The position numbers and the translations under genes were made by a program. The notes under the pieces were generated by a model that worked only from the letters and a program-made list of their open reading frames with translations, was not told the DNA's origin and did not search any database. A stretch of DNA of 33,883 nt from a virus. This document shows, piece by piece, positions 3,563-33,053 of the stretch (position 1 is its first letter; each line of letters begins with the position of its first letter). The DNA is taken from the IMG/VR virus record IMGVR_UViG_3300033153_002687, positions 1-33,883 of that record; one strand, 5' to 3'.

Positions 3563-5937
3563 TTTACACTAATACAAGAAGTTCATTTCCTGATCAGGTA
3601 GTACCTGAAGCAGAAAAAATGAGTTTAGAATATGGCCTAAGAGTAGCACAAGCTATTGAAGGAGAATGGTGGAGTCAGGCATATGGTGGGTATAGATACC
3701 AAAATAATTATAATATATTTTTTAATAGAAGATTATACGCTAGAGCCGAACAACCTGTTCAAAAGTACAAAGATGAAATGTCTATTAATGGTGATTTATC
3801 TTATTTGAATTTAGACTGGAAACCAGTTCCTATAATACCAAAGTTTGTGGATATCGTAGTAAATGGTATGTCTAATAAGTTATATGATATTAAAGCTTAT
3901 GCTCAAGATCCTGCTTCTCAAAAACTAAGAACTGAATATGCTGAGGCTTTGCACAAGCAGATAAAAACTAGAGAATATATAGAAAAAGTAAAGCAAGCTT
4001 TAGGAGTTGATTTAAATACTATTAAAGGTGAAGGTATTCCTCAAACCGAACAAGAGTTAGAGATTCATATGCAACTAGATTACAAACAGTCTATCGAAAT
4101 TGCAGAGGAAGAAGCTATCACCAATGTATTAGCTAGAAATAAATATGATCTAGTTAGAAGAAGAGTAAATAAAGATTTAGTTACATTAGGTATAGGCGCT
4201 GTTAAAACTAATTATAACAAGTCTAATGGTATTACAGTCGAATACGTAGACCCAGCTAATCTAGTTTGGTCATATACTGACGATCCTAATTTTCAAGACA
4301 TATATTATGTAGGAGAAGTTAAGTCTTTAAGTATTCCAGAACTTAAGAAACAATTTCCTGGTCTTACCACTGTTCAATTGGAAGAAATTCAAAAAATGCC
4401 TGGTAACACAAACTATACTAGGAATTGGGAGGGAAAAAATAATAATAACACAGTTCAAGTATTATATTTTGAGTATAAAACATTTGCTGATCAAGTCTTT
4501 AAAATAAAACAAACTGATCAAGGTTTAGAGAAAGCATTAGAAAAAACTGACGAATTTAATCCACCGCCTAATGATAACTTTGAAAGAGTAAGTAGATCAA
4601 TAGAGGTATTATATCATGGCGTTAAGATATTAGGACATCCTATAATGTTAAAATGGGAGATTGCAGAGAATATGACTCGTCCATTTTCAAACTTGACTAA
4701 AGTAAACATGAACTATCAAATATGTGCTCCAAGTTTATATAAAGGTGGCATTAACTCTTTAGTTGAAAGAATGATTGGTTTTGCAGATATGATACAACTT
4801 ACATCGTTAAAAATGCAGCAAGTTCTTTCTAGGATGGTACCTGATGGTGTATTTGTAGATGTAGATGGTTTAGCAGAAGTAGATTTAGGCAATGGAACAA
4901 ACTACAATCCTCAAGAAGCTTTGAACATGTATTTTCAAACTGGTAGTATTGTTGGTAGATCTATGACTCAGGATGGTGATCAGAATATAGGTAAAGTACC
5001 TATACAAGAGCTACAGACATCAGCTGCTCAAGCTAAAATACAATCTTTAATAACAACGTATCAGTATTATCTACAAATGATTAGAGATACAACAGGTTTG
5101 AATGAGGCAAGAGATGCAAGTAATCCTGATCCTAATTCTCTAGTAGGTTTACAAAAATTAGCTGCTGCTCAATCAAACGTTGCTACAAGACATATTCTAG
5201 CTGCTAGCTTATTCTTAACACTGAGAGCGTGTGAAAATATATCATTAAGAATTGCAGATACGCTTGATTTTCCACTTACTAGAGAAGCACTAGTTAACAG
5301 TGTTAGCATGTATAACACAGCTACGTTAGAAGAGTTGGAAGATTTAAACTTATTTGATTTTGGGATATATTTAGAATTAGAACCCGATGAAGAAGCAAAA
5401 GCACAATTGGAAGCTAATATTCAAATGGCACTTCAACAAAAAACAATTGACTTAGCTGATGCTATTGATATTAGAGAAATTAAAAATCTAAAATTAGCTA
5501 ATCAATTATTAAAATTAAGAAGAAAACAAAAGCTTAAAGAAGATCAAGAGGCACAGCAAGCTAATATTAAAGCTCAAGCCGAAGCTCAAACTAAATCTAG
5601 AGAACAAGAAGCTATGTTTGAAGTACAGAAACAACAAGCATTATCTCAAACTAATATACAGTTTGAACAAGCTAAAAGTCAATTTGAAATCCAGAAGATG
5701 GAGATCAAAGCGGAAATAGATAAGCAATTAAAAGAAGTACAATTTGCATTTGATATGCAACTTGAAAAACAAAAAATGGGTGCAACAGTGCAAAAGGAAG
5801 TTATGATAGAAGATCGTAAAGATACCAGAAGCAAACAAGAAGCTACTCAACAAAGTCAATTGATAAACCAAAGCCAAAACAATGGTTTACCACAAAACTT
5901 TGAAACTCCCATTAATGACTTAAATTTTGGGATATAA
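3559..5937 (+). CDS. Portal protein
   Basis: A 792-aa protein directly after terL, the usual place and size for the portal of crAss-like podoviruses. The portal is a dodecameric ring at one capsid vertex through which DNA enters and leaves, and to which TerL and the tail attach. The N-terminal 500 residues include a conserved-looking block, WKPVPIIPKFVDIVVNGM (87-104), and a mixed alpha/beta core with a segment GLNEARDASNPDPNSLVGLQ near 515. From about residue 605 to 755 the protein becomes a long Gln/Glu/Lys-rich helical barrel or coiled coil, typical of portal crowns that reach into the capsid. The start shares ATGA with the terL stop. There is no recognisable catalytic motif. The call rests on position, length and architecture. 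Confidence 0.82.
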   Translation: MIYTNTRSSFPDQVVPEAEKMSLEYGLRVAQAIEGEWWSQAYGGYRYQNNYNIFFNRRLYARAEQPVQKYKDEMSINGDLSYLNLDWKPVPIIPKFVDIVVNGMSNKLYDIKAYAQDPASQKLRTEYAEALHKQIKTREYIEKVKQALGVDLNTIKGEGIPQTEQELEIHMQLDYKQSIEIAEEEAITNVLARNKYDLVRRRVNKDLVTLGIGAVKTNYNKSNGITVEYVDPANLVWSYTDDPNFQDIYYVGEVKSLSIPELKKQFPGLTTVQLEEIQKMPGNTNYTRNWEGKNNNNTVQVLYFEYKTFADQVFKIKQTDQGLEKALEKTDEFNPPPNDNFERVSRSIEVLYHGVKILGHPIMLKWEIAENMTRPFSNLTKVNMNYQICAPSLYKGGINSLVERMIGFADMIQLTSLKMQQVLSRMVPDGVFVDVDGLAEVDLGNGTNYNPQEALNMYFQTGSIVGRSMTQDGDQNIGKVPIQELQTSAAQAKIQSLITTYQYYLQMIRDTTGLNEARDASNPDPNSLVGLQKLAAAQSNVATRHILAASLFLTLRACENISLRIADTLDFPLTREALVNSVSMYNTATLEELEDLNLFDFGIYLELEPDEEAKAQLEANIQMALQQKTIDLADAIDIREIKNLKLANQLLKLRRKQKLKEDQEAQQANIKAQAEAQTKSREQEAMFEVQKQQALSQTNIQFEQAKSQFEIQKMEIKAEIDKQLKEVQFAFDMQLEKQKMGATVQKEVMIEDRKDTRSKQEATQQSQLINQSQNNGLPQNFETPINDLNFGI

Positions 5938-22127: not shown

Positions 22128-25100
22128 ATGGAAGACGAAGATTTCGAAATCATAGAAACTGACGAGCTTATAGAAGGACCTGGTGATGACTTTGAAGAAG
22201 TTGAAGAAGTTGAAGGAGATTATAAGACGTTTAAAGATGGAGACAAAGCATACAAGGTATCCAAAGAAACGGAGCAACTTTTTTTAAAAGATCATCCGTA
22301 TGCTGAGTCTATTCCTGATGGCGGACCATATCAGTATGATGAGACATACTTATATGAGAGTGATCCTATAAATCCTGATAAAAGACAAATAAATCAAATA
22401 GGAAATGATTTTGAGATTATAGATAGTGGACCAGACGCTTTTGATCTTGATAACATAGAAAGAGTTTTAGAACAAAACAAAAAAAGAGATGCTGATCTTT
22501 TCGCACAAGAAGATGATTATATAAAGTGGAAAGAAGATAAAGGTTATTTGGAAACAGAAGATGACGAAGATAGTGAAGATGATCTTTATAGGCAGCTTGA
22601 AGCGCCAATGCTACCAGGTTCGTTAGAAGTAGTAACACCTGTACAACATCAACAAATACAGGAGAATATATACCTTGATCAATACTTAAAAGATAAGAAA
22701 GATAAAGTTAAAAAAGAACATTCTGATACTTATGGAGTAGAATATACTAATGCAGTAGAAAAAGGGTTTGTTAATCCTGTTTTTATGAGTAAGTCAGAGA
22801 TAGAACAGTTTGATGAAGAAACACCTTATTCCTATGATATATGGCAACCTGAAAATGAAACTGTCTCTAATCCGTACTTTAATTCTTCTAACTATACTGA
22901 GTTAGGTTTTAGAGGTGGTCAGCCAATGGAAAATATTCCTAAAAACCAAGCTGAAGTAGAATCTGATTGGAACATGTGGTTAGGTAGAGAAGGAGAAAGA
23001 ATTTATAATACAGACGTAAAAGACCTAACAAACACACTCGCATTAGAATATACAAGAGATGGTTATAAAATTACAGATGGAAAAAGTTTTTATCCCACGC
23101 CTTTAAAAACTATTACTAGAGAACAGTTAGAAGCTGAAGCTAGAGAAAAGATTAATGGAGATAGAGAATATGTAACATCTCAGTATGCTAGTAACGACAT
23201 GAATAACTTAAAGAAGTTACAGCAAGAATACGTTAGTGTATCAACATTAAAAGGACCAGGATCTCCAGAAGCTATAGCATTAAAAAAGCAATATGAGTCG
23301 CAATGGGAAAAAGTCATGAATAGCGATGGAGCTGAGCAATTATATAATCCTATTACTGAAGAGTTTTTAAAAGATAGACCTGAAAGAAAAGAACAAATAA
23401 ATGTTGAAGCTAAAGAACTCGCTGAAACAACTCCCATCCAAACATTAACTGACGAGCATATGCATTTATACTACCGTTTAGTAGCGATGAATAATGTAAT
23501 GACTGAAGGTAATGGATATAGACGAGTGTGGGGAGATAAGGATAGAAGCGAAATGGGAGTCACTGAGAGAATTGCTGCTAGCTTTGATGGTTTACAAGAA
23601 GGTTACTTAATGTTACAAGAATCTATTGGTGATAAAGGAGATTTAGGAGAAAAAGCTAAAGGAAGAGGTTTAACTTATGACCCGATTACTGGGAATAAAG
23701 TTAATTTATCAATGAACGAAGATGTTCAGAGAATGTTTTTGAACAAAAAAGAAGGAGTACCAGGTAATAGAATGCCTTATCCTGGTACGCCATTACAAAA
23801 TAACTCAAGGTTTAATGAGTTTTATAATGAACAGTTATTAAGATTTATAACCATTGGTAAAGCTTTAGAATATAATTACAATCCATCTACATTAGAACAA
23901 ACAGGTTTTGCAGATCATTTTATAATGGGAGCTGTAGATATATTAGCTGAAGATGCAAGCCCATTTCTACAGGGAGGAGATAAAGAAGCTAAGCGATGGG
24001 TAGAAGGAATGGAGTTTTTACGAGGCAAAGAAGGTGTTACTGAAGAAGAAGTAGAAAGAGCAAAGGATAGAACAAGAGATTTAATAAGTGGAGGTGTACC
24101 AGAGTTTATGCTTTTAATGGGTATAATGGCTACTACTAAAACTCCAGTTGCTGGCGGGTTAACTAGAATAACTGCACTTGGAGAACAGATTTTTGGTAGG
24201 ACTCTAGTTGGAGAAACCTTAGGAACAGCGAGTAGAGGCTTTCAGAAAATAGCATTAGAATCTGTAGGAGCTCCAGCTGCAGTTGTAGAAGGAGCTGGCA
24301 CAGCGTTTGGAACTTCACCTGCTTTAAGTTTAACAGCTGAAATGGTAACTAACGGTATTGTTGAAGTAGGAGCTGGTTACGCAGCAGATAAAACATTAGG
24401 CGCTTTAGGTGGAGAGGAAATGGGTTGGTCTATATGGGCAGGTTTTGGAGCAGCAAATCCTATATCTAAAAGATTGATAAATAAAATACTTACTCCGGTA
24501 ATGATGGGAGAAACTAAAGGTTTATTGAATTGGAAAAATGCTTATAGAAACAATGAAGGTTTTAAAGCTATTGTAGATGGAACTGTTAGTTCAACAACTG
24601 CTTTACCAACAACTGTTGCTGTAGAATTATTTGATGCTACTTTTATAGATACAGATAATCCTGATAAAACTTTAGCTCATATTACAGATCCAGAAAAGTT
24701 ATTTATTTTATGGAGTCAAATAATGTTAACAGGAGGATTTTCTTCAAGATCCGAGTACGCTACTGGATTAAGAAAGTTTGGTAGCGGGTTAAATGACGCT
24801 ATCATGGGTTATCCTTTAAATAGTCCACAAGCAAATGCAGCAGCTAAACGACTAGGTATTCGTAGTACTAGAAAAACTAATGGAGAACTTAATGATATAC
24901 ATGTAGCTAAAGAACAAGAATTATTAAATGATCCTAAATACGCTGATCAACAAAAAGATGGATTAGCTCTAGAAGGAACAGAGTTAGCTACTAAACTAGA
25001 AGAATTAAATACTGATTTAAAAAGTATTATGTTTCATAATGAATTATTAACCATCCAGAAGCAGATAGGTAAAATTCAAGATCCCAATGGAGTATACCAA

Positions 25101-28100
25101 CAGAAACAAAAACAAGGTAGAGATTTATTAGAGTCTATAGTGGAACAATCTATGCAATTAAAAGAAGGTGAATCATTAAGTACAGAGAATATAACACTTA
25201 CTCCGGAAAATATAGATTACCTAGCTAACACTCCTCAAACTTTAATAGACATGGCTCTTAGTGGTCCAGTTAGAAGTTCTGAAAACATAGAAATGTCTGC
25301 TAAGTTAAAAGCTTTAAAACAAAAAGCACAACAATACCAACAAAAGATGGATGGTATGGGCTTTAAGAAAAACACTACACAATATAAAGAAGCATTAGAG
25401 ATTATTGAAGAATCTACTAGGTTAGAAAACGAAGCAAAAGAATTACAAAAAGAAAGACAAGGTAACGTGCTTCCTCCTGTATTGGTAGATAATGCTATTA
25501 AAAAGAACAAAGCTAGACAAAAAGAGTTAAGTGAAATTTTAGAAGCTAAAGAAATAGAAAACCAAGGTTATTTAGAAACCGCTCGATTAGAAGATATTAG
25601 AATAGCTGAAGAGCAAGCTAAGAAATATTATCCTGAAAGTGAATTCAAAACTTTTGAAACTACTGAAGATTACTTAGCAAAAGCAAAAGAGCTAGGTGTA
25701 GATGCAAAAGGAAGTGAAGGCTTTTTTATTGACAAAGGAACTGGTAAAGTATTTATAGATTTACAAAGAGCAAGAGAAATAAATAATATAACAGTAGGGA
25801 CTCATGAGGTTTTACATCAGTTAATGGAACCTCAATTAAGAGATGCTAAAGTTACAGATAGATTAGTAGAAGAGTTTAAAAAGGAATTATCTTGGGAACA
25901 GTTACAAGCTGTAGAAGGCAAGATGGCTAAACAAGCAGAAGGTAATAGAACAAGTAAAGAATGGTTTAATGCTTTCAACGATGCTATTAGAGATGGTGAT
26001 ATTCCTCCACCAACAGCTAAAACAGATGGTATTTGGAAGAAAATTGGTAACCCTATTTTAAATGTACTAAAACGTGGTGGTGCTAGAAATGCAGAGTTTA
26101 AAACCGGTAAAGATGTTTATAATTTTATAGCAGATTATGCGAGTGGAAAAGAAGTTGCTAAAGTAAAAGAAATTAAATCTCAACCTGAAACAGGTAAGAT
26201 GGCTGCTTCAAGAACAAAAGAAATAGCTACTGAATTAAAAAATTTAGTACCTGAATGGAAGAAAGCTGAAGGACCTGAGAAAGTAAAACTGCAAGAGCAA
26301 ATGAAAGAGCTTACTGCAGAGAAGAAATCTTTAGAACAAGCTAATAATAAGAGAGTTGCTGATTTTAAAAACTTATCTAATAGGTTTAAAGATTTAAGTC
26401 CCAAAGGAAAAGAAAAAACTATTAACGAGTTAGTAGAAAAAGATGGTAAACGTTTAACAAATTCTGAATGGCAAGAGTTTTTATACACTGATCTCAAGGA
26501 TCATGGTGGTAAAGGTCTTATATTAGATAAAGTTGTTGATATGTTTGAAGGTGCTATTGAAGGCAAGATAAAAGGTAAATCAGTTACTGGTGGTACAGGT
26601 GAAAATAAAAACACTGTATCAAGAGCTGAAGCAATGGAGATACTTAGAGATGAATTAACATCTAGAAAATTCCAATGGGATAAAATAATTAATTTTGATC
26701 CAGCTGTTAACAAAAGTTTTTCTGGTTACATGAATAGTATTATTCATAATGCTTATAAGTCTACTTTAGATAAGATAGGTAAAAAACCTAAATCAAAATC
26801 TTTAGATGAAACTTATGATGGTGGAAAAAATGTCATGGAAGCAGAATCTAAAGACTTATCGCCAGAAGAAGCGGCCGATAGAGCATTAGCTGCTGAAGCT
26901 GCAGAGAAAGCTCAAGCAAAAAAAGAACAACAACTTAAAGATAAAGGAGCATCAGCTAAAGCTATAGAAGAAGCAGGTGGTAGATCTACTATGAAAACTA
27001 GTATAGATCTTTCTAAACCAGAACAGACTAAAGTAAAAGAATTTGCAGAAGAAGTAATACAAAAAGAAATTGATAACTTAGCTAAAGAAGATTTTACTTT
27101 CTTTGAAAAACCTAAATTTAGAAAAGAAGTTATTAAAAACTTTGGTAAAGAATTCTTAGAAAAAATACCTCATCCTAGTCAACAGTCTGTTAAAGAATCT
27201 AAAAAAGGAAAGACTCCAAAGGAAATAAAAGAGATCAATGATAAAGCTAAAGCTGATTATGAAAAATGGCTTAAAGAAAAGTTATATCCTGAGGTAGTAA
27301 AAAGAAATAAACCTATAAAAGAAGGTGGAGATCCTAGTATATTTAGAAGAATGAACTGGGATATAATGTATGAACCCACTGGAAAGAAGTATACTTCTAA
27401 AGAAGCTAAAGCTATACAAGTAGAACAAGGTATAAAGAATGTTAAGTCTCAAAGAGCTGAGTATAGAGAAAAAACTCCAACAGCTGAACAGTTTGTTGAT
27501 TATATATTACATCGTGGAGAATTTAAAAATGCTAAATCTAGACCAAATGAAAAGCGTTTAAGGATTGGAGATTTTTTAGCTGAATCAATATTAGGTGATG
27601 CAACAGTAGATGTTATTAAGAACTCTAAAAATATTAGTGAGTTTCAAAAAAGTGAACTACTTAGAGACAACTCATTGAGTCGAGTAGCAGAGATACTTAA
27701 GAAAGATCCTAAAATTAGTTTTACTAAAACTGTTGAAACAGCAATAAAGGATAATGTAGGCGTTGATGGATTAGAAAAAATATTAGATTTAAACGATTCT
27801 AAAGTTAGAAAAGGATTAGAAGAGATTAATAGAGTTGTTAGAAGTCAAGAGATCAAACTATATGCAGAAGAAAATGGTTTAAAAGATCTAGCATTAGCAG
27901 AGAAAATGTTTGAAGCTGATGGAAAGAGTTGGAAAAAAGTTATTGTAGATAACGGAGGAGAATATATACCTCCTAGAGAAAGACTATATGCAGAAAATAT
28001 AGATAAACACAAAGAAGTTTCTAATGGAATTGTTGATGCTTTAGAAAGAAGGTTTGGTGATTTAAACAACCCTGAATTAAAGTCTATCAGATCAGCACTA

Positions 28101-31100
28101 ATGCCTACGTTAGGTTTTGGTAATTTAGTTACTCCATTTATGAGAGTAAATTCTAAAGGTAAAGTAAGTCAAAGAGTTTTAGCTAGTGAAATGTTTATTA
28201 CTCCCAAAGAGAAGGCTAATAAAACTAAAGTTAGCTCTATGGAAGTTGTTAATAGATTTTTAGGAAGAGAACCTTATTCTAAACCTTTAACTACTCAACA
28301 AAAGAAGAATATAGCTAAAGCTAAGAACGCATGGCAACCAGCCTGGACTCAAGCAGGTTTCAAAGGAAAAGCTGAGATCTTAATGGATAAACTAAACAAA
28401 GGTGAGATAACCAAGAGTGAGTTTGTAGATGGAGCTAGAAAGCTTTTAACTAATCCTAAGTTGAGAAACGAACCTAATGGTTATGAAAAAACCATGGAAG
28501 CTAACGACATTGTTAAAGACATGTTCTATGAAGGTTTAAATGACTATTATAACTCTTTCAAGACTAAAGAAGGTAGATCCAATGCTGAGCAACAAATAGC
28601 AATGCTATTACAAAACCAAACAAATGCAGCGACTGGCCTGAATAAAGGTTTCTTCCCAATGGAAAGTGTTACTACTAGACCAGAAGCTAAAAGTAAAGAT
28701 AGTAAAGTTCTTACTCATAATGAACACATGACTGATCTAAGACCAGCTAATCAAATGGTTTTAGAATTAATTAAAAATACTAAAGGCAATAAAAAAGCTT
28801 TTACAGAAGGTTTAAAATTCATATCTAGAGATCTTAAGCAAGGGTTAATATCGAAAAAAGCTCAAACACTAAAAGACGCTACTGAACGTGGTGGAGCAGG
28901 AACATTATCTTCTAAAGACTATTTATTAAACACTTTTCTTTCTAATAAAACAGCTGGAGAACAAATATTTCTAGGTGGAGAAAATAAAGGGAAGACAGTT
29001 GCTGAAGTATTACAAGAGAAATATAGTAGAAAATATTTATTAGATAAACTAACTAGTATTCCTGAAAGTAAAAGAACAGTTGATGTAGTAAAGTTAATAC
29101 AGCAGTTAGAATATAAATCTAATTTTGACAAAGCATTTGCTCACAATGAAAGCTCTCTACCTCAGTTTAGTAAAACTAGAGATCCTAAAAATATAAAGCA
29201 ACAAGTAGAAGCTATGACTATTACTGATAAAGCTTTGGAGTTAGGAAGAAAGTTAGATAAAAAACCTAAGAAAGCTAGGGTATTTGATTTTGATGACACT
29301 GTAGCTAGAACAAATAGTAATGTGTTATATACAATGCCTGATGGTAGAAAAGGTAAGATAACACCTGCTGAGTTTGCTAAAAAAGGAGAGGCTATGGAAG
29401 CGCAAGGAGCTAAATGGGATTTTTCTGAGTTTAATCAGGTTGTTGATGGGAAGAAAGGTCCATTGTTTGATGTGATGAAAAAGATGAAAGAAGCTGCTGG
29501 TGAAAGAGACATGTTTATATTAACAGCTCGAGCACCAGAAGCAGCTCCAGCTATACACAAGTTCTTAAAAGAAATGGGTATTGATATTCCAATAGAAAAT
29601 GTAAAAGGTCTAGGTAATAGTTCACCTAATGCTAAAGCTGAATTTATAGTAGAAAAAGCGGCAGAAGGTTTTAATGACTTTTATTTTGCTGATGATCATA
29701 CTGGTAATGTTAAAGCCGTTAAAGATGTATTAGATCAACTAGACGTTAAATCTAAAGTACAACAAGCTAAGTTCTCTAAAACTCTTGATAAACAATTTAA
29801 CGAATTAATAGAGCAAACTACAGGTCTTGAATGGTTTAAAGACTTTTCAAAGGCTAAAGGAGAAGTAATAGGTAGAAAGAAAGGTAGAGGTAAATTTTTT
29901 ATACCTCCATCTGCAGAAGATTTCTTAGGTTTAACTTATGCTACTTTAGCTAAAGGTAAGTTAGGAGAAAGACAACAAAAGTGGTACAAAGAAAATGTGT
30001 TCGATCCTTATTCTAGAGCTATGGATAATTTGTCTACTGATAGAGTTAACTTAATGAACGACTTTAAACAATTAAAAAAAGAATTAGATGTACCTAAAGA
30101 TCTACGTAAAACGAATGAAACTGGTTTTACGAATGAGCAAGCAGTTAGAGTTTATTTATGGGATAAGACTGGGCAAAGAATACCTGGTATTTCAAAAACT
30201 GATTTAATAGAGTTAAAGAGAGTTGTAGAAAGAGATAGTAAACTACAAGCATTTGCAGATCAAATACTTGATGTAACTAAAGGAGATGGATATAGTACAC
30301 CTAAAGAAAACTGGTTAGCAAGTACAATAACTGGAGATTTAATTGATTTACTAAATACAACTAAAAGAGGTAAATACTTAGCTGAATGGAAAGAAAATAT
30401 AGACGTTATTTATTCTGAAAAGAATTTAAATAAGTTAGAATCTCTATATGGTCCAAAATATAGAGAAGCTTTAGAGAATATAATCACCAGAATGAAAGCT
30501 GGTAAAAATAGAATACAAAGTGGTAATAGATTAAGTGATGGAGTATTAAATTATATTAATCAGTCTCAGGGAGCTATCATGTTCTTGAATATGAGATCAG
30601 CATTACTACAAACTATATCAGCTACAAACTACATGAACTGGAGTTTTAATAATCCTGTTAAAGCAGGTAAAGCTTTTGCTAATCAAAAACAATATTGGAA
30701 AGACTTTGTAGATATAATGAACTCTGATTATTTAGTAGATAGACGTAATGGTTTGAAATTAAATATTGCAGAAAATGAAATTGCTGACGCAGCTAAGACT
30801 AGTAAAAATAAAGCTAAAGCTGTATTAAACTATATCATTGAGAAAGGATATTTACCTACTAAATTTGCGGATAGTTTTGCTATTGCTAGTGGTGGTGCTA
30901 CTTTTTATAGAAACAGAGTAAATGATTTAATCAAGAAAGAAGGTAAAACTAGAGCTGAAGCAGAGAAACAAGCGTTTACAGAATTTAAAGAAATATCTGA
31001 GCTATCTCAACAATCGTCTGATCCTAGTAAAATATCACAACAACAATCAGGAGACTTAGGAAGAATTGTTTTGCAATTTGTCAACACACCAATGCAATAT

Positions 31101-31841
31101 TCAAGATTACAGAAAAGAGCATTTCAAGATCTGGTAAAAGGTAGAGGAGATTGGAAAAGTCATATTAGTAGAATACTATATTATGGTGGAATGCAAAACT
31201 TATGGTTTAATGTTATGCAGCAAGGAGCATTCGCATTAGGTTTTGGTGATGCAAGCGATGAAGAAGAAGAGAAAATGTATAATAATATATACAATGGTAT
31301 GTCTGATAGTATATTAAGAGGACTAGGTATGGGTGGAATGACAGTATCTGTATTAAAAAATACCTTTTTAGATATATATGAAAGAAGTGGAAGAAAAAGA
31401 CCAGAATATTCTAAAGCATGGGAAGAGTTATTAGGTTTTTCTCCTGCTATAAAAAGAAAACTAACTCACTTTAAAGGAGCTGCATGGCCATTTGATTCTA
31501 AAAAGCGTAGAAAAGAGGTATTTGAAAAAGGATTTAGTTTAGATAATCCAGCATGGCGATCTTTAGCTAAAGTAATTGAAGGAGCTACAGCGCTTCCTGC
31601 TGATAGGTTGTTTCAAAAAGTAGAAAATATCGAAGCCGCGTTAAGAGAGGATCAAGAGGTTTGGAAGTCAATAGCTTTATTTATGGGTTGGCCAGAATGG
31701 CAGATAGATAAAGAAGGAGCTGATGCTGCTAAAGGTAAAACTCCAAATACTAATAAAAATAAATCTAGTTCTAAAGCAAAAAGTGGTGAAGTTGAGAATG
31801 TAGATTATTATATGAAGAATGGTAAAAAAATATATTTCTAA
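22128..31841 (+). CDS. Giant multi-domain internal virion protein (zincin, sigma-like, HAD)
   Basis: A 3237-aa protein, nearly a third of the window. I can see, in order: an acidic disordered N-terminus (1-150); a hydrophobic Gly/Ala region (about 620-880) that could enter membranes; helical, coiled-coil material (900-1180); a zincin-type motif THEVLHQL with H1226, E1227 and H1230; a sigma-70 region-2-like segment (about 1450-1590) with NFDPAVNKSF and SLDET; a Lys-rich helical tract (1600-2380); an HAD phosphohydrolase core with FDFDDT (2386-2391), ILTAR (2464-2468) and DD at 2522-2523; and a C-terminal region with FVNTPMQYSRLQKRAFQDL and MGWPEWQID. This resembles the polyvalent proteins of phages and plasmids that enter the host with DNA. 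No RNA-polymerase DxDGD motif is seen. The giant is certainly one intact reading frame; the separate activities are inferred. Confidence 0.8.
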   Translation: MEDEDFEIIETDELIEGPGDDFEEVEEVEGDYKTFKDGDKAYKVSKETEQLFLKDHPYAESIPDGGPYQYDETYLYESDPINPDKRQINQIGNDFEIIDSGPDAFDLDNIERVLEQNKKRDADLFAQEDDYIKWKEDKGYLETEDDEDSEDDLYRQLEAPMLPGSLEVVTPVQHQQIQENIYLDQYLKDKKDKVKKEHSDTYGVEYTNAVEKGFVNPVFMSKSEIEQFDEETPYSYDIWQPENETVSNPYFNSSNYTELGFRGGQPMENIPKNQAEVESDWNMWLGREGERIYNTDVKDLTNTLALEYTRDGYKITDGKSFYPTPLKTITREQLEAEAREKINGDREYVTSQYASNDMNNLKKLQQEYVSVSTLKGPGSPEAIALKKQYESQWEKVMNSDGAEQLYNPITEEFLKDRPERKEQINVEAKELAETTPIQTLTDEHMHLYYRLVAMNNVMTEGNGYRRVWGDKDRSEMGVTERIAASFDGLQEGYLMLQESIGDKGDLGEKAKGRGLTYDPITGNKVNLSMNEDVQRMFLNKKEGVPGNRMPYPGTPLQNNSRFNEFYNEQLLRFITIGKALEYNYNPSTLEQTGFADHFIMGAVDILAEDASPFLQGGDKEAKRWVEGMEFLRGKEGVTEEEVERAKDRTRDLISGGVPEFMLLMGIMATTKTPVAGGLTRITALGEQIFGRTLVGETLGTASRGFQKIALESVGAPAAVVEGAGTAFGTSPALSLTAEMVTNGIVEVGAGYAADKTLGALGGEEMGWSIWAGFGAANPISKRLINKILTPVMMGETKGLLNWKNAYRNNEGFKAIVDGTVSSTTALPTTVAVELFDATFIDTDNPDKTLAHITDPEKLFILWSQIMLTGGFSSRSEYATGLRKFGSGLNDAIMGYPLNSPQANAAAKRLGIRSTRKTNGELNDIHVAKEQELLNDPKYADQQKDGLALEGTELATKLEELNTDLKSIMFHNELLTIQKQIGKIQDPNGVYQQKQKQGRDLLESIVEQSMQLKEGESLSTENITLTPENIDYLANTPQTLIDMALSGPVRSSENIEMSAKLKALKQKAQQYQQKMDGMGFKKNTTQYKEALEIIEESTRLENEAKELQKERQGNVLPPVLVDNAIKKNKARQKELSEILEAKEIENQGYLETARLEDIRIAEEQAKKYYPESEFKTFETTEDYLAKAKELGVDAKGSEGFFIDKGTGKVFIDLQRAREINNITVGTHEVLHQLMEPQLRDAKVTDRLVEEFKKELSWEQLQAVEGKMAKQAEGNRTSKEWFNAFNDAIRDGDIPPPTAKTDGIWKKIGNPILNVLKRGGARNAEFKTGKDVYNFIADYASGKEVAKVKEIKSQPETGKMAASRTKEIATELKNLVPEWKKAEGPEKVKLQEQMKELTAEKKSLEQANNKRVADFKNLSNRFKDLSPKGKEKTINELVEKDGKRLTNSEWQEFLYTDLKDHGGKGLILDKVVDMFEGAIEGKIKGKSVTGGTGENKNTVSRAEAMEILRDELTSRKFQWDKIINFDPAVNKSFSGYMNSIIHNAYKSTLDKIGKKPKSKSLDETYDGGKNVMEAESKDLSPEEAADRALAAEAAEKAQAKKEQQLKDKGASAKAIEEAGGRSTMKTSIDLSKPEQTKVKEFAEEVIQKEIDNLAKEDFTFFEKPKFRKEVIKNFGKEFLEKIPHPSQQSVKESKKGKTPKEIKEINDKAKADYEKWLKEKLYPEVVKRNKPIKEGGDPSIFRRMNWDIMYEPTGKKYTSKEAKAIQVEQGIKNVKSQRAEYREKTPTAEQFVDYILHRGEFKNAKSRPNEKRLRIGDFLAESILGDATVDVIKNSKNISEFQKSELLRDNSLSRVAEILKKDPKISFTKTVETAIKDNVGVDGLEKILDLNDSKVRKGLEEINRVVRSQEIKLYAEENGLKDLALAEKMFEADGKSWKKVIVDNGGEYIPPRERLYAENIDKHKEVSNGIVDALERRFGDLNNPELKSIRSALMPTLGFGNLVTPFMRVNSKGKVSQRVLASEMFITPKEKANKTKVSSMEVVNRFLGREPYSKPLTTQQKKNIAKAKNAWQPAWTQAGFKGKAEILMDKLNKGEITKSEFVDGARKLLTNPKLRNEPNGYEKTMEANDIVKDMFYEGLNDYYNSFKTKEGRSNAEQQIAMLLQNQTNAATGLNKGFFPMESVTTRPEAKSKDSKVLTHNEHMTDLRPANQMVLELIKNTKGNKKAFTEGLKFISRDLKQGLISKKAQTLKDATERGGAGTLSSKDYLLNTFLSNKTAGEQIFLGGENKGKTVAEVLQEKYSRKYLLDKLTSIPESKRTVDVVKLIQQLEYKSNFDKAFAHNESSLPQFSKTRDPKNIKQQVEAMTITDKALELGRKLDKKPKKARVFDFDDTVARTNSNVLYTMPDGRKGKITPAEFAKKGEAMEAQGAKWDFSEFNQVVDGKKGPLFDVMKKMKEAAGERDMFILTARAPEAAPAIHKFLKEMGIDIPIENVKGLGNSSPNAKAEFIVEKAAEGFNDFYFADDHTGNVKAVKDVLDQLDVKSKVQQAKFSKTLDKQFNELIEQTTGLEWFKDFSKAKGEVIGRKKGRGKFFIPPSAEDFLGLTYATLAKGKLGERQQKWYKENVFDPYSRAMDNLSTDRVNLMNDFKQLKKELDVPKDLRKTNETGFTNEQAVRVYLWDKTGQRIPGISKTDLIELKRVVERDSKLQAFADQILDVTKGDGYSTPKENWLASTITGDLIDLLNTTKRGKYLAEWKENIDVIYSEKNLNKLESLYGPKYREALENIITRMKAGKNRIQSGNRLSDGVLNYINQSQGAIMFLNMRSALLQTISATNYMNWSFNNPVKAGKAFANQKQYWKDFVDIMNSDYLVDRRNGLKLNIAENEIADAAKTSKNKAKAVLNYIIEKGYLPTKFADSFAIASGGATFYRNRVNDLIKKEGKTRAEAEKQAFTEFKEISELSQQSSDPSKISQQQSGDLGRIVLQFVNTPMQYSRLQKRAFQDLVKGRGDWKSHISRILYYGGMQNLWFNVMQQGAFALGFGDASDEEEEKMYNNIYNGMSDSILRGLGMGGMTVSVLKNTFLDIYERSGRKRPEYSKAWEELLGFSPAIKRKLTHFKGAAWPFDSKKRRKEVFEKGFSLDNPAWRSLAKVIEGATALPADRLFQKVENIEAALREDQEVWKSIALFMGWPEWQIDKEGADAAKGKTPNTNKNKSSSKAKSGEVENVDYYMKNGKKIYF

Positions 31842-31847
31842 TTACAA

Positions 31848-32123
31848 ATGAAGATAAGTGAACAAACAGAAGTAAAATTAGACCTCAAAGGTATAATAAA
31901 AATAGTAATGTTAACTGCTACTTTCGTAGGTATGTATTACACTTTACAATCTGATATTGAGGAAGCAAAGACACTTCCTCCTGCTGAAATTAAAAGACTT
32001 GAATATGATTTAAAGCAAGAGTGGCAAACAAAGCATATTGAAAAATTAGAAAACAAAGTAGATGAAATATTGTATTGGTGTAAAGAAGTAGATAAAGAAA
32101 TATATAAAAATAAAAAGAAATGA
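31848..32123 (+). CDS. Small single-pass membrane protein (holin- or spanin-like candidate)
   Basis: A 91-aa protein. Residues 1-14 are soluble (KISEQTEVKLDLKG), then about 15-34 form one hydrophobic span (IIKIVMLTATFVGMYYTL), then a charged helical, coiled-coil-like tail with LENKVDEILYW. The N-in, C-out layout with a coiled tail would fit an inner-membrane spanin or a small holin-like protein, but there is no defining motif. It starts seven bases after the giant gene and overlaps the secreted-protein gene by four bases (ATGA), so the two are probably co-translated and may act together at the envelope. I recall similar proteins at the ends of structural modules in marine phages, without known function. 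Confidence 0.65.
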   Translation: MKISEQTEVKLDLKGIIKIVMLTATFVGMYYTLQSDIEEAKTLPPAEIKRLEYDLKQEWQTKHIEKLENKVDEILYWCKEVDKEIYKNKKK

Positions 32124-32977
32124 AATATTTATTAACATCATTATTAGCTTTAGCTTTTTTATTAGGATATTCTCAATGTAATAATGGTACTAACTATTAT
32201 CCATCGTTTATTTATACACCAATAGAGGAAACATGGGATTACGCTTCTAGTTGCAATTGGGCTGGTGAAGTTATACAGTTGAATGTTAAAGCAGGAGATA
32301 CATATGAATTCTCTACATGTGATCAGTATGGTTTTACACAAGCTAGTTATGATACTCAGATAACATTGTTAGATGGTTTAGGTAATTTATTAGATTTCAA
32401 TGATGATTATAACGGCTGTGCAGGATACACATCTTACCTTAGGTGGGTTGCTCCTTACAGTGGTACAGTATATTTACATTTAAATGAATACTATTGTTTA
32501 GATAATCTTACATGTACTACAGTAATGATATATCGAACACCTTCATTTAATTTACCTATAGATCTTATTTCTTTTAATGCAGAGTATTTGGGTAGTGAAA
32601 CACACCCAGTAGTAATTGTCACGTGGGAAGTTGCTTCTCAAGTTAATAATGATTACTTTGAAGTACAACGTAGTGTAAATGTAGAAAATTGGTATACTGT
32701 AGAAACCGTGACAGGAGCTGGGAATAGTAACACCCAAATGTCATACAGTATCATTGACACTAATCCTTTTTATGGAATTTCTTATTATCGTTTAAAACAG
32801 ACTGATTACGATGGACAACACGAATCATTTCATCCCGTGTCAGTCTTAATCAGTTCAGAAGAAAAAATTATAAAAAAAGTTGTAAACTTTATGGGACAGG
32901 AGATAAATGATAATCATAAAGGAATGGTAGTAGAAATATATCAAGATGGAACATATGTAAAAAAATATTATAAATAA
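32120..32977 (+). CDS. Secreted protein with Bacteroidota T9SS-cargo architecture
   Basis: A 285-aa protein built like a Bacteroidota type IX secretion cargo. Residues 1-18 are a signal peptide (KYLLTSLLALAFLLGYS) with a likely cut before Q19; Gln next to C20 rules out a lipobox. Residues 47-138 form a beta domain (VKAGDTYEFSTC, then YLRWVAPYSGTVYLHL) like the PPC-type domains in such cargos, with C45, C67, C100, C126 and C132. Residues 145-243 hold LPIDLISFNAEY, NNDYFEVQRS, GAGNSN and YYRLKQTDYDG, a hallmark block that usually precedes the sorting domain. Residues 249-285 (VVNFMGQEINDN, then EIYQDGTYVKKYYK) look like a T9SS C-terminal signal. The host T9SS could export it to the surface. It ends the plus-strand operon. 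Function unknown; host origin is inferred. Confidence 0.8.
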   Translation: MKYLLTSLLALAFLLGYSQCNNGTNYYPSFIYTPIEETWDYASSCNWAGEVIQLNVKAGDTYEFSTCDQYGFTQASYDTQITLLDGLGNLLDFNDDYNGCAGYTSYLRWVAPYSGTVYLHLNEYYCLDNLTCTTVMIYRTPSFNLPIDLISFNAEYLGSETHPVVIVTWEVASQVNNDYFEVQRSVNVENWYTVETVTGAGNSNTQMSYSIIDTNPFYGISYYRLKQTDYDGQHESFHPVSVLISSEEKIIKKVVNFMGQEINDNHKGMVVEIYQDGTYVKKYYK

Positions 32978-33020: not shown

Positions 33021-33053
33021 AAAAAGGGGATCTCAATACGAGGTCCCCTTTTT
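33021..33053. terminator. Bidirectional terminator between convergent genes
   Basis: Bases 33021-33033 pair with 33041-33053, with AAAAAGGGGA against TCCCCTTTTT at the core and one G-T pair near the seven-base loop. The plus strand ends in a T tract and the minus strand has six T residues after the stem, so it can end both the virion operon and the convergent reductase transcript. A second, imperfect stem-loop (32978-33014, AGGAAC with GTTCCT, inner TGGG with CCCA) lies just before it. Confidence 0.85.

Follow-up and report, generated by a model that had tools for sequence, protein, structure and literature searches.

The question raised by this locus is whether the last gene of a phage virion operon encodes a protein that leaves the infected cell by the type IX secretion system (T9SS) of the host and, if so, what such a protein would do there. 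The window (the whole analyzed stretch of DNA) is an IMG/VR virus record of 33,883 bp, and the gene in question, coding for 285 aa, occupies exactly positions 32120-32977 of the plus strand, starting from ATG and having no internal stop.

The virus is marine and probably infects flavobacteria. Its terminase shares 62% identity with that of MW202828; the identity drops to 45% for the elemo phages of Flavobacterium and to 37-38% for the Cellulophaga phages phi38:1 and phi13:2. The hosts of the nearest cultured relatives are Flavobacterium and Cellulophaga. The gene order in the window is GroES, large terminase, portal, several virion proteins, a 3237-aa giant protein, a 91-aa membrane protein, and the 285-aa gene, beyond which the end of a ribonucleotide reductase gene lies on the opposite strand. 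The GroES-like co-chaperonin gene (506-1195) precedes the terminase gene also in phi38:1 and the elemo phages. The giant structural protein (22128..31841, plus strand) is syntenic with that of the cultured relatives phi38:1, elemoF and phi13:2, where it closes the virion operon and where the general gene order is similar. In residues 2379-2550 it contains an internal match to phrog_415 (polynucleotide kinase), and a HEVLH zincin-like motif is also present in it; on these two features, the giant protein may comprise enzymes carried into the cell.

A convergent intrinsic terminator (33021..33053), near-perfect and bidirectional, with a 14-bp stem and a 5-nt loop (-21.7 kcal/mol, z -4.8), separates the virion operon on the plus strand from the ribonucleotide reductase gene on the minus strand. 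As this strong terminator stands directly behind the 285-aa gene, the late transcript most likely ends with that gene, and, given this last position in the late virion operon, its product is probably made late. The slot between the genes of the giant protein and the reductase is variable among the relatives (variable-slot genes at 4953-5615 and 5729-6004 in L002/L016, 4802-5044 in L006, and 6465-6989 in L006/L008), and its contents include a weak match to glycosyltransferase-2, DUF6321, a holin-like small membrane protein, and Cys-containing coiled-coil-like proteins.

The gene immediately upstream encodes a one-helix membrane protein (31848..32123, plus strand; phrog_20984), and a preceding sequence-only reading of this DNA regarded it as coupled to the 285-aa gene, suggesting that the two may be one functional unit. 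The two genes indeed overlap by 4 nt (ATGA, 32120-32123), but this arrangement is not conserved. The scan with the membrane protein yielded 202 loci, and among the best 80 of these 202 a homologue of the 285-aa gene is found nearby in 8, at a spacing of 0-617 nt and once on the other strand; in turn, two close homologues of the 285-aa gene (L002 and L016) stand behind other genes, with no membrane protein in the record. The membrane protein mostly occurs without the cargo gene, and the single-unit interpretation has to be dropped: this is a neighbor and not an obligate partner.

The 285-aa protein starts with a Sec/SPI signal peptide (residues 1-18, 32120..32173), a call judged from the sequence and the structure model. 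It reads MKYLLTSLLALAFLLGYS and is followed by Gln-Cys, so that the cut falls before Gln19, and residues 2-16 form a helix in the AlphaFold model (built with 18 phage sequences, mean pLDDT 80). The Q19-C20 pair is invariant in 18 of the 18 aligned phage sequences, and cleavage before Gln is in keeping with the Bacteroidetes Q-rule (PMC5837995). An alternative interpretation of the protein as a lipoprotein was rejected, since position -1 of Cys20 is occupied by Gln and there is no lipobox.

Behind the signal peptide, the model contains two beta domains (39-140 and 148-244), followed by three C-terminal strands. The first one is a predicted jelly-roll (residues 20-142, 32177..32545, plus strand), which retains its fold when modelled alone (pLDDT 89, pTM 0.85). 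Among its nearest solved folds, according to Foldseek, are the PPC domain from the Bacillus anthracis collagenase and the collagen-binding domains (CBDs) of clostridial collagenases, the similarity being moderate (5sv5, TM 0.53/0.59; ColG/ColH CBD, TM 0.50-0.56; best E 1e-3). The protein has no Pfam match to the PPC domain (PF04151), and thus the PPC-like assignment made earlier may hold for the modelled fold only. The several cysteines noticed in this domain are C20, C67, C100 and C126, all of them invariant among the 18 aligned phage sequences. Domains 50-57% identical to it occur in secreted proteins of Flavobacteriales.

The second domain is Fn3-like (residues 145-245, 32552..32854, plus strand; predicted strands 148-244). 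It carries the NNDYFEVQRS / YYRLKQTDYDG block pointed out by the sequence-only reading, and both the block and the domain are conserved, the latter in phage and bacterial homologues. Its match to choice_anch_U is sub-threshold (17 bits, the cut-off being 32). No Pfam, NCBIfam or PHROGs model scores over the cut-off for the 285-aa protein, and a profile search of PDB sequences gave no match. The fold search of PDB with the whole model retrieved only generic beta-sandwiches (TM 0.24-0.30), with no solved C-terminal domain (CTD) among the listed matches. As no catalytic family is recognised in the protein, a binding role would be the natural reading.

The C-terminal 40 aa (residues 246-285, 32855..32974 of the plus strand, with the profile match at 32864-32971) had been taken for a T9SS sorting signal. 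It is not a signal of the standard kind: TIGR04183, TIGR04131 and PF18962 do not match the protein even at E<=1, and by the curated cut-offs it belongs neither to type A (TIGR04183/PF18962) nor to type B (TIGR04131) CTDs. On the two models that the sequence-only reading had named, this outcome speaks against its proposal. What stands is a module of the short type. It reads NFMGQEI-NDNHK-GMVVEIYQDGTYVKKYYK, where NFMGQEI is motif B, GMVVEIY is motif D and KKYYK is motif E, and it answers to the description of a short CTD: it closes the protein, falls in the length range of about 40-55 aa, contains motifs B, D and E, and leaves few residues between B and D. The strands predicted here are 251-255, 268-274 and 279-284. 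Most phage homologues retain this C-terminus, and others have a full TIGR04183 CTD in its place, so that on conservation the outcome is in favor of the earlier proposal.

Short CTDs are known from Prevotella intermedia, where they have been shown to act as T9SS signals; they comprise 40-55 aa, their motifs B and D each contain an invariant Gly and lie 1-6 aa apart, a basic motif E forms the end, and a single three-stranded sheet is predicted (Ye et al. 2025, PMC11969387). The same study confirmed where the CTD is cut in five short-CTD proteins, stated that cargo with either short or long CTDs can be glycosylated at the mature C-terminus, and named P. intermedia as the sole species with reports of both kinds (PMC11969387). 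Likened by anatomy, the phage tail agrees with the Prevotella CTDs in length, terminal position, association with a signal peptide, motifs B, D and E, invariant glycines in B and D, tight B-D spacing, basic end, three strands, and the presence of long CTDs alongside. Unlike them, tails of Flavobacteriales and phages have the signature (L/M)GQEV...KG(M/I)V.E.Y.DG...K.

The same tail is common in Flavobacteriales. Searched with a profile of 36 positions built from nine phage C-termini only, 94 of 199 genomes of this order contain a match (E<=0.01 per genome, the best value being 6e-16), and the strongest bacterial matches, among the fetched examples, all end 0-7 aa before the stop codon. The proteins carrying it are unrelated to each other and include PHB-depolymerase-like esterases and a P-domain protein. 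Complete tail-bearing ORFs have a signal peptide in 17 of 20 cases (by a crude rule) and a Q-rule site also in 17 of 20. Conversely, phage tails score 44-61 bits against a model constructed from bacterial short CTDs only (55 bits for the 285-aa protein). Outside Flavobacteriales, the module is all but absent: apart from the seed MAG, 297 genomes of the phylum gave two weak partial tail matches. None of the Pfam or NCBIfam models covers the short tail in the scanned, mostly bacterial proteins, whereas both libraries detect the full CTD of the phage homologue L023. SprA is present in 196 of the 199 sampled Flavobacteriales genomes, the host lineage being taken from the phage relatives; since T9SS is near-universal in this sample, the co-occurrence of short CTDs with SprA is uninformative. 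In the Flavobacteriales MAG from which L015 derives, TIGR04183 has 77 matches at E<=1, the majority exceeding the cut-off, and the short-tail profile has four. Genes with short CTDs often stand in tandem (L042, L052 and other Flavobacteriales loci, with three in a row in contig G009:C33), pointing to an expansion of this class of cargo.

Could the tail be something other than a sorting signal? The protein might be exported to the periplasm only, the last 40 residues being a beta extension that stabilizes the preceding domain. The Fn3-like domain does often precede the tail, and besides the lack of matches to standard CTD models, comparison of the short and long CTD profiles by hhalign is not significant (probability 2-3%), and cross-scoring of short and long CTDs versus shuffles is weak and one-sided (with one model, 16 of 42 exceed the 95th percentile; with the other, 1 of 23). 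Still, the tail also terminates proteins having no Fn3-like domain, such as the PHB-depolymerase-like esterases, and its strongest matches all lie at the very C-terminus. Moreover, TIGR04183 CTDs replace it at the same junction. The phage homologues L022, L023 and L024 have the same N-terminal and Fn3-like domains followed by a full TIGR04183/PF18962 CTD, and in the bacterial esterases related to L066 either a short tail or a long CTD directly follows the catalytic domain. The short tail is found in 27 of the 30 nearest esterases, all within L251-L278, and in four more distant ones; the long CTD is found in nine more distant ones (L283, L284, L286, L291, L293, L295, L298-L300), one long-CTD esterase sharing its MAG with short-tail proteins. 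No other evidence speaks as strongly for an equal function of the short and long CTDs as this swap at a shared junction, and the swap makes export to the periplasm alone an unlikely explanation. The phage tail thus resembles type A CTDs (TIGR04183/PF18962) in position, motif B, terminal motif, signal-peptide cargo and the same-junction swap, and differs from them in being a short module without the PNP strand region, about half as long, undetected by their models, and having no significant homology to them.

Taken together, we estimate at about three in four the probability that the gene encodes host T9SS cargo, a captured and shortened flavobacterial secreted protein with a short-type CTD. 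The predicted routing through T9SS is well supported; the host export proposed earlier is retained by way of the short-type CTD and not by way of the TIGR04183 or TIGR04131 domains. The captured protein would consist of a Sec signal, a substrate-binding jelly-roll, an Fn3-like spacer and the short-type CTD, and two bacterial proteins (L335 and L336) have this architecture, with signal peptide, N-terminal domain, Fn3-like domain and short tail. After Sec export, the signal peptide would be cleaved before Gln19 with formation of pyroglutamate, the protein would fold in the periplasm with disulfides, PorV/SprA would recognise the short CTD via motifs B, D and E, and the cargo would finally be released to, or attached at, the cell surface.

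As for the role of such cargo, the likeliest one, although at odds well below even, would be to coat the infected cell or debris and mask receptors, a purpose like that of Llp of phage T5. By analogy, both would be phage proteins at the host outer membrane with proposed receptor masking (PMC9586334), but Llp is a small lipoprotein, and the 285-aa protein has no lipobox and is predicted to take the T9SS route. The homologue in another phage type (L018, 5652-7787) is located two genes ahead of an amidase/peptidoglycan-binding endolysin, and this proximity makes a lysis-time role possible. Second in our ranking is an adhesin-like change or aggregation of the dying cell surface or of released material. 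Decoration of virions would be third: exported, or freed at lysis, the protein would bind particles and help them to stick to surfaces or hosts. The place of the gene within the virion operon, next in line after those of the giant structural and small membrane proteins, and the resemblance of the N-terminal domain to a substrate-binding one, agree with that. On the other hand, the signal peptide would remove the protein from assembling particles, the L018-L025 homologues are outside any recognisable virion operon, and in the cultured relatives the last gene of this operon is the one for the giant protein, all of which makes decoration highly improbable.

Homologues of the 285-aa protein were found in at least 19 viral contigs in two scans, and additionally in L092, while the scan of genome contigs with the gene retrieved one locus, bacterial relatives coming from searches of genomes. 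In the podovirus clade, the gene stands between the genes of the giant protein and the reductase, and most of its longer versions have an extra domain of about 190 aa. The gene context is different in L018, L019 and L022-L025. Marine megaphage relatives have either the short tail (LR745206) or the long CTD (LR756500). Neither the TIGR04183 nor the short-tail profile matched anything in MW202828, phi38:1, elemoF, phi13:2 or Gundel_1, and among 46 long related records that had been selected on other grounds than the gene, only one has it. It is thus an accessory gene in its own phage clade, and the possibility of its being a core gene is ruled out by the same count. At the same time, the gene is under purifying selection: dN/dS is 0.13-0.16 for the whole gene versus the three closest homologues and 0.06-0.21 for the CTD in the six closest homologue pairs, whereas the values obtained with the signal peptide or with distant pairs are noisy and partly saturated. 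Hence, its rarity, its variable slot and the existence of host proteins with the same architecture notwithstanding, dN/dS well below 1 in both gene and CTD of close homologues and retention in many contigs and unrelated phage types leave hardly any room for a passenger gene, recently captured from the host and of no benefit to the phage.

The sequence-only reading called the routing of a phage protein through T9SS a little-described strategy, which is fair, although there are precedents. Phage-encoded T9SS cargo, known by inference, has been reported in Cryophage (Bellas et al. 2020, PMC7468147), and T9SS proteins, likewise known by inference, in crAss-like contigs (PMC6949934). As in the present case, these are phages of Bacteroidota encoding cargo for the host T9SS, and the Cryophage genes are variable and accessory. 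The difference is that in Cryophage the sorting domains are of type A and are found on enzymes and on a PA14 protein, while here a binding-domain protein with a short CTD is encoded after virion genes. New are the short CTD kind in phages, the spread of this tail across Flavobacteriales and marine phages, and its absence from the models searched; in the open-licence literature we have found no paper describing short-CTD phage cargo or the spread of the tail.

A broader reading, towards which we lean with less confidence than for the single gene, is that the short CTD is a widespread second T9SS signal of Flavobacteriales that the searched Pfam and NCBIfam models do not include, and that it has repeatedly been taken together with its cargo by several unrelated kinds of phages (Cellulophaga-type podoviruses, 70-115 kb phages and 600-kb marine megaphages) for display on the infected cell. 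Among other viral records, a contig of 151,931 bp (L009, G008) encodes three TIGR04183 proteins, including two neighboring genes of more than 1000 aa, and the megaphage records LR745206, LR756500, LR756502 and LR756504 (L301-L304) have one to three TIGR04183 matches each, at least one of them over the cut-off in every record. The paper on Mar_Mega_1 cites LR745206 for a related gene, and the host could not be assigned there (PMC9723777). Judged from their sequences, the T9SS tags in the marine megaphage records point to Bacteroidota hosts.

If the broader reading is true, phages of marine flavobacteria use the host T9SS as their own display route, and current models miss a part of the flavobacterial T9SS secretome, the module being present in roughly one of every two Flavobacteriales genomes sampled. 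The last 40 residues would then be a minimal, portable tag, and T9SS tags may serve as a host clue for viruses whose host is unknown, such as the marine megaphages.
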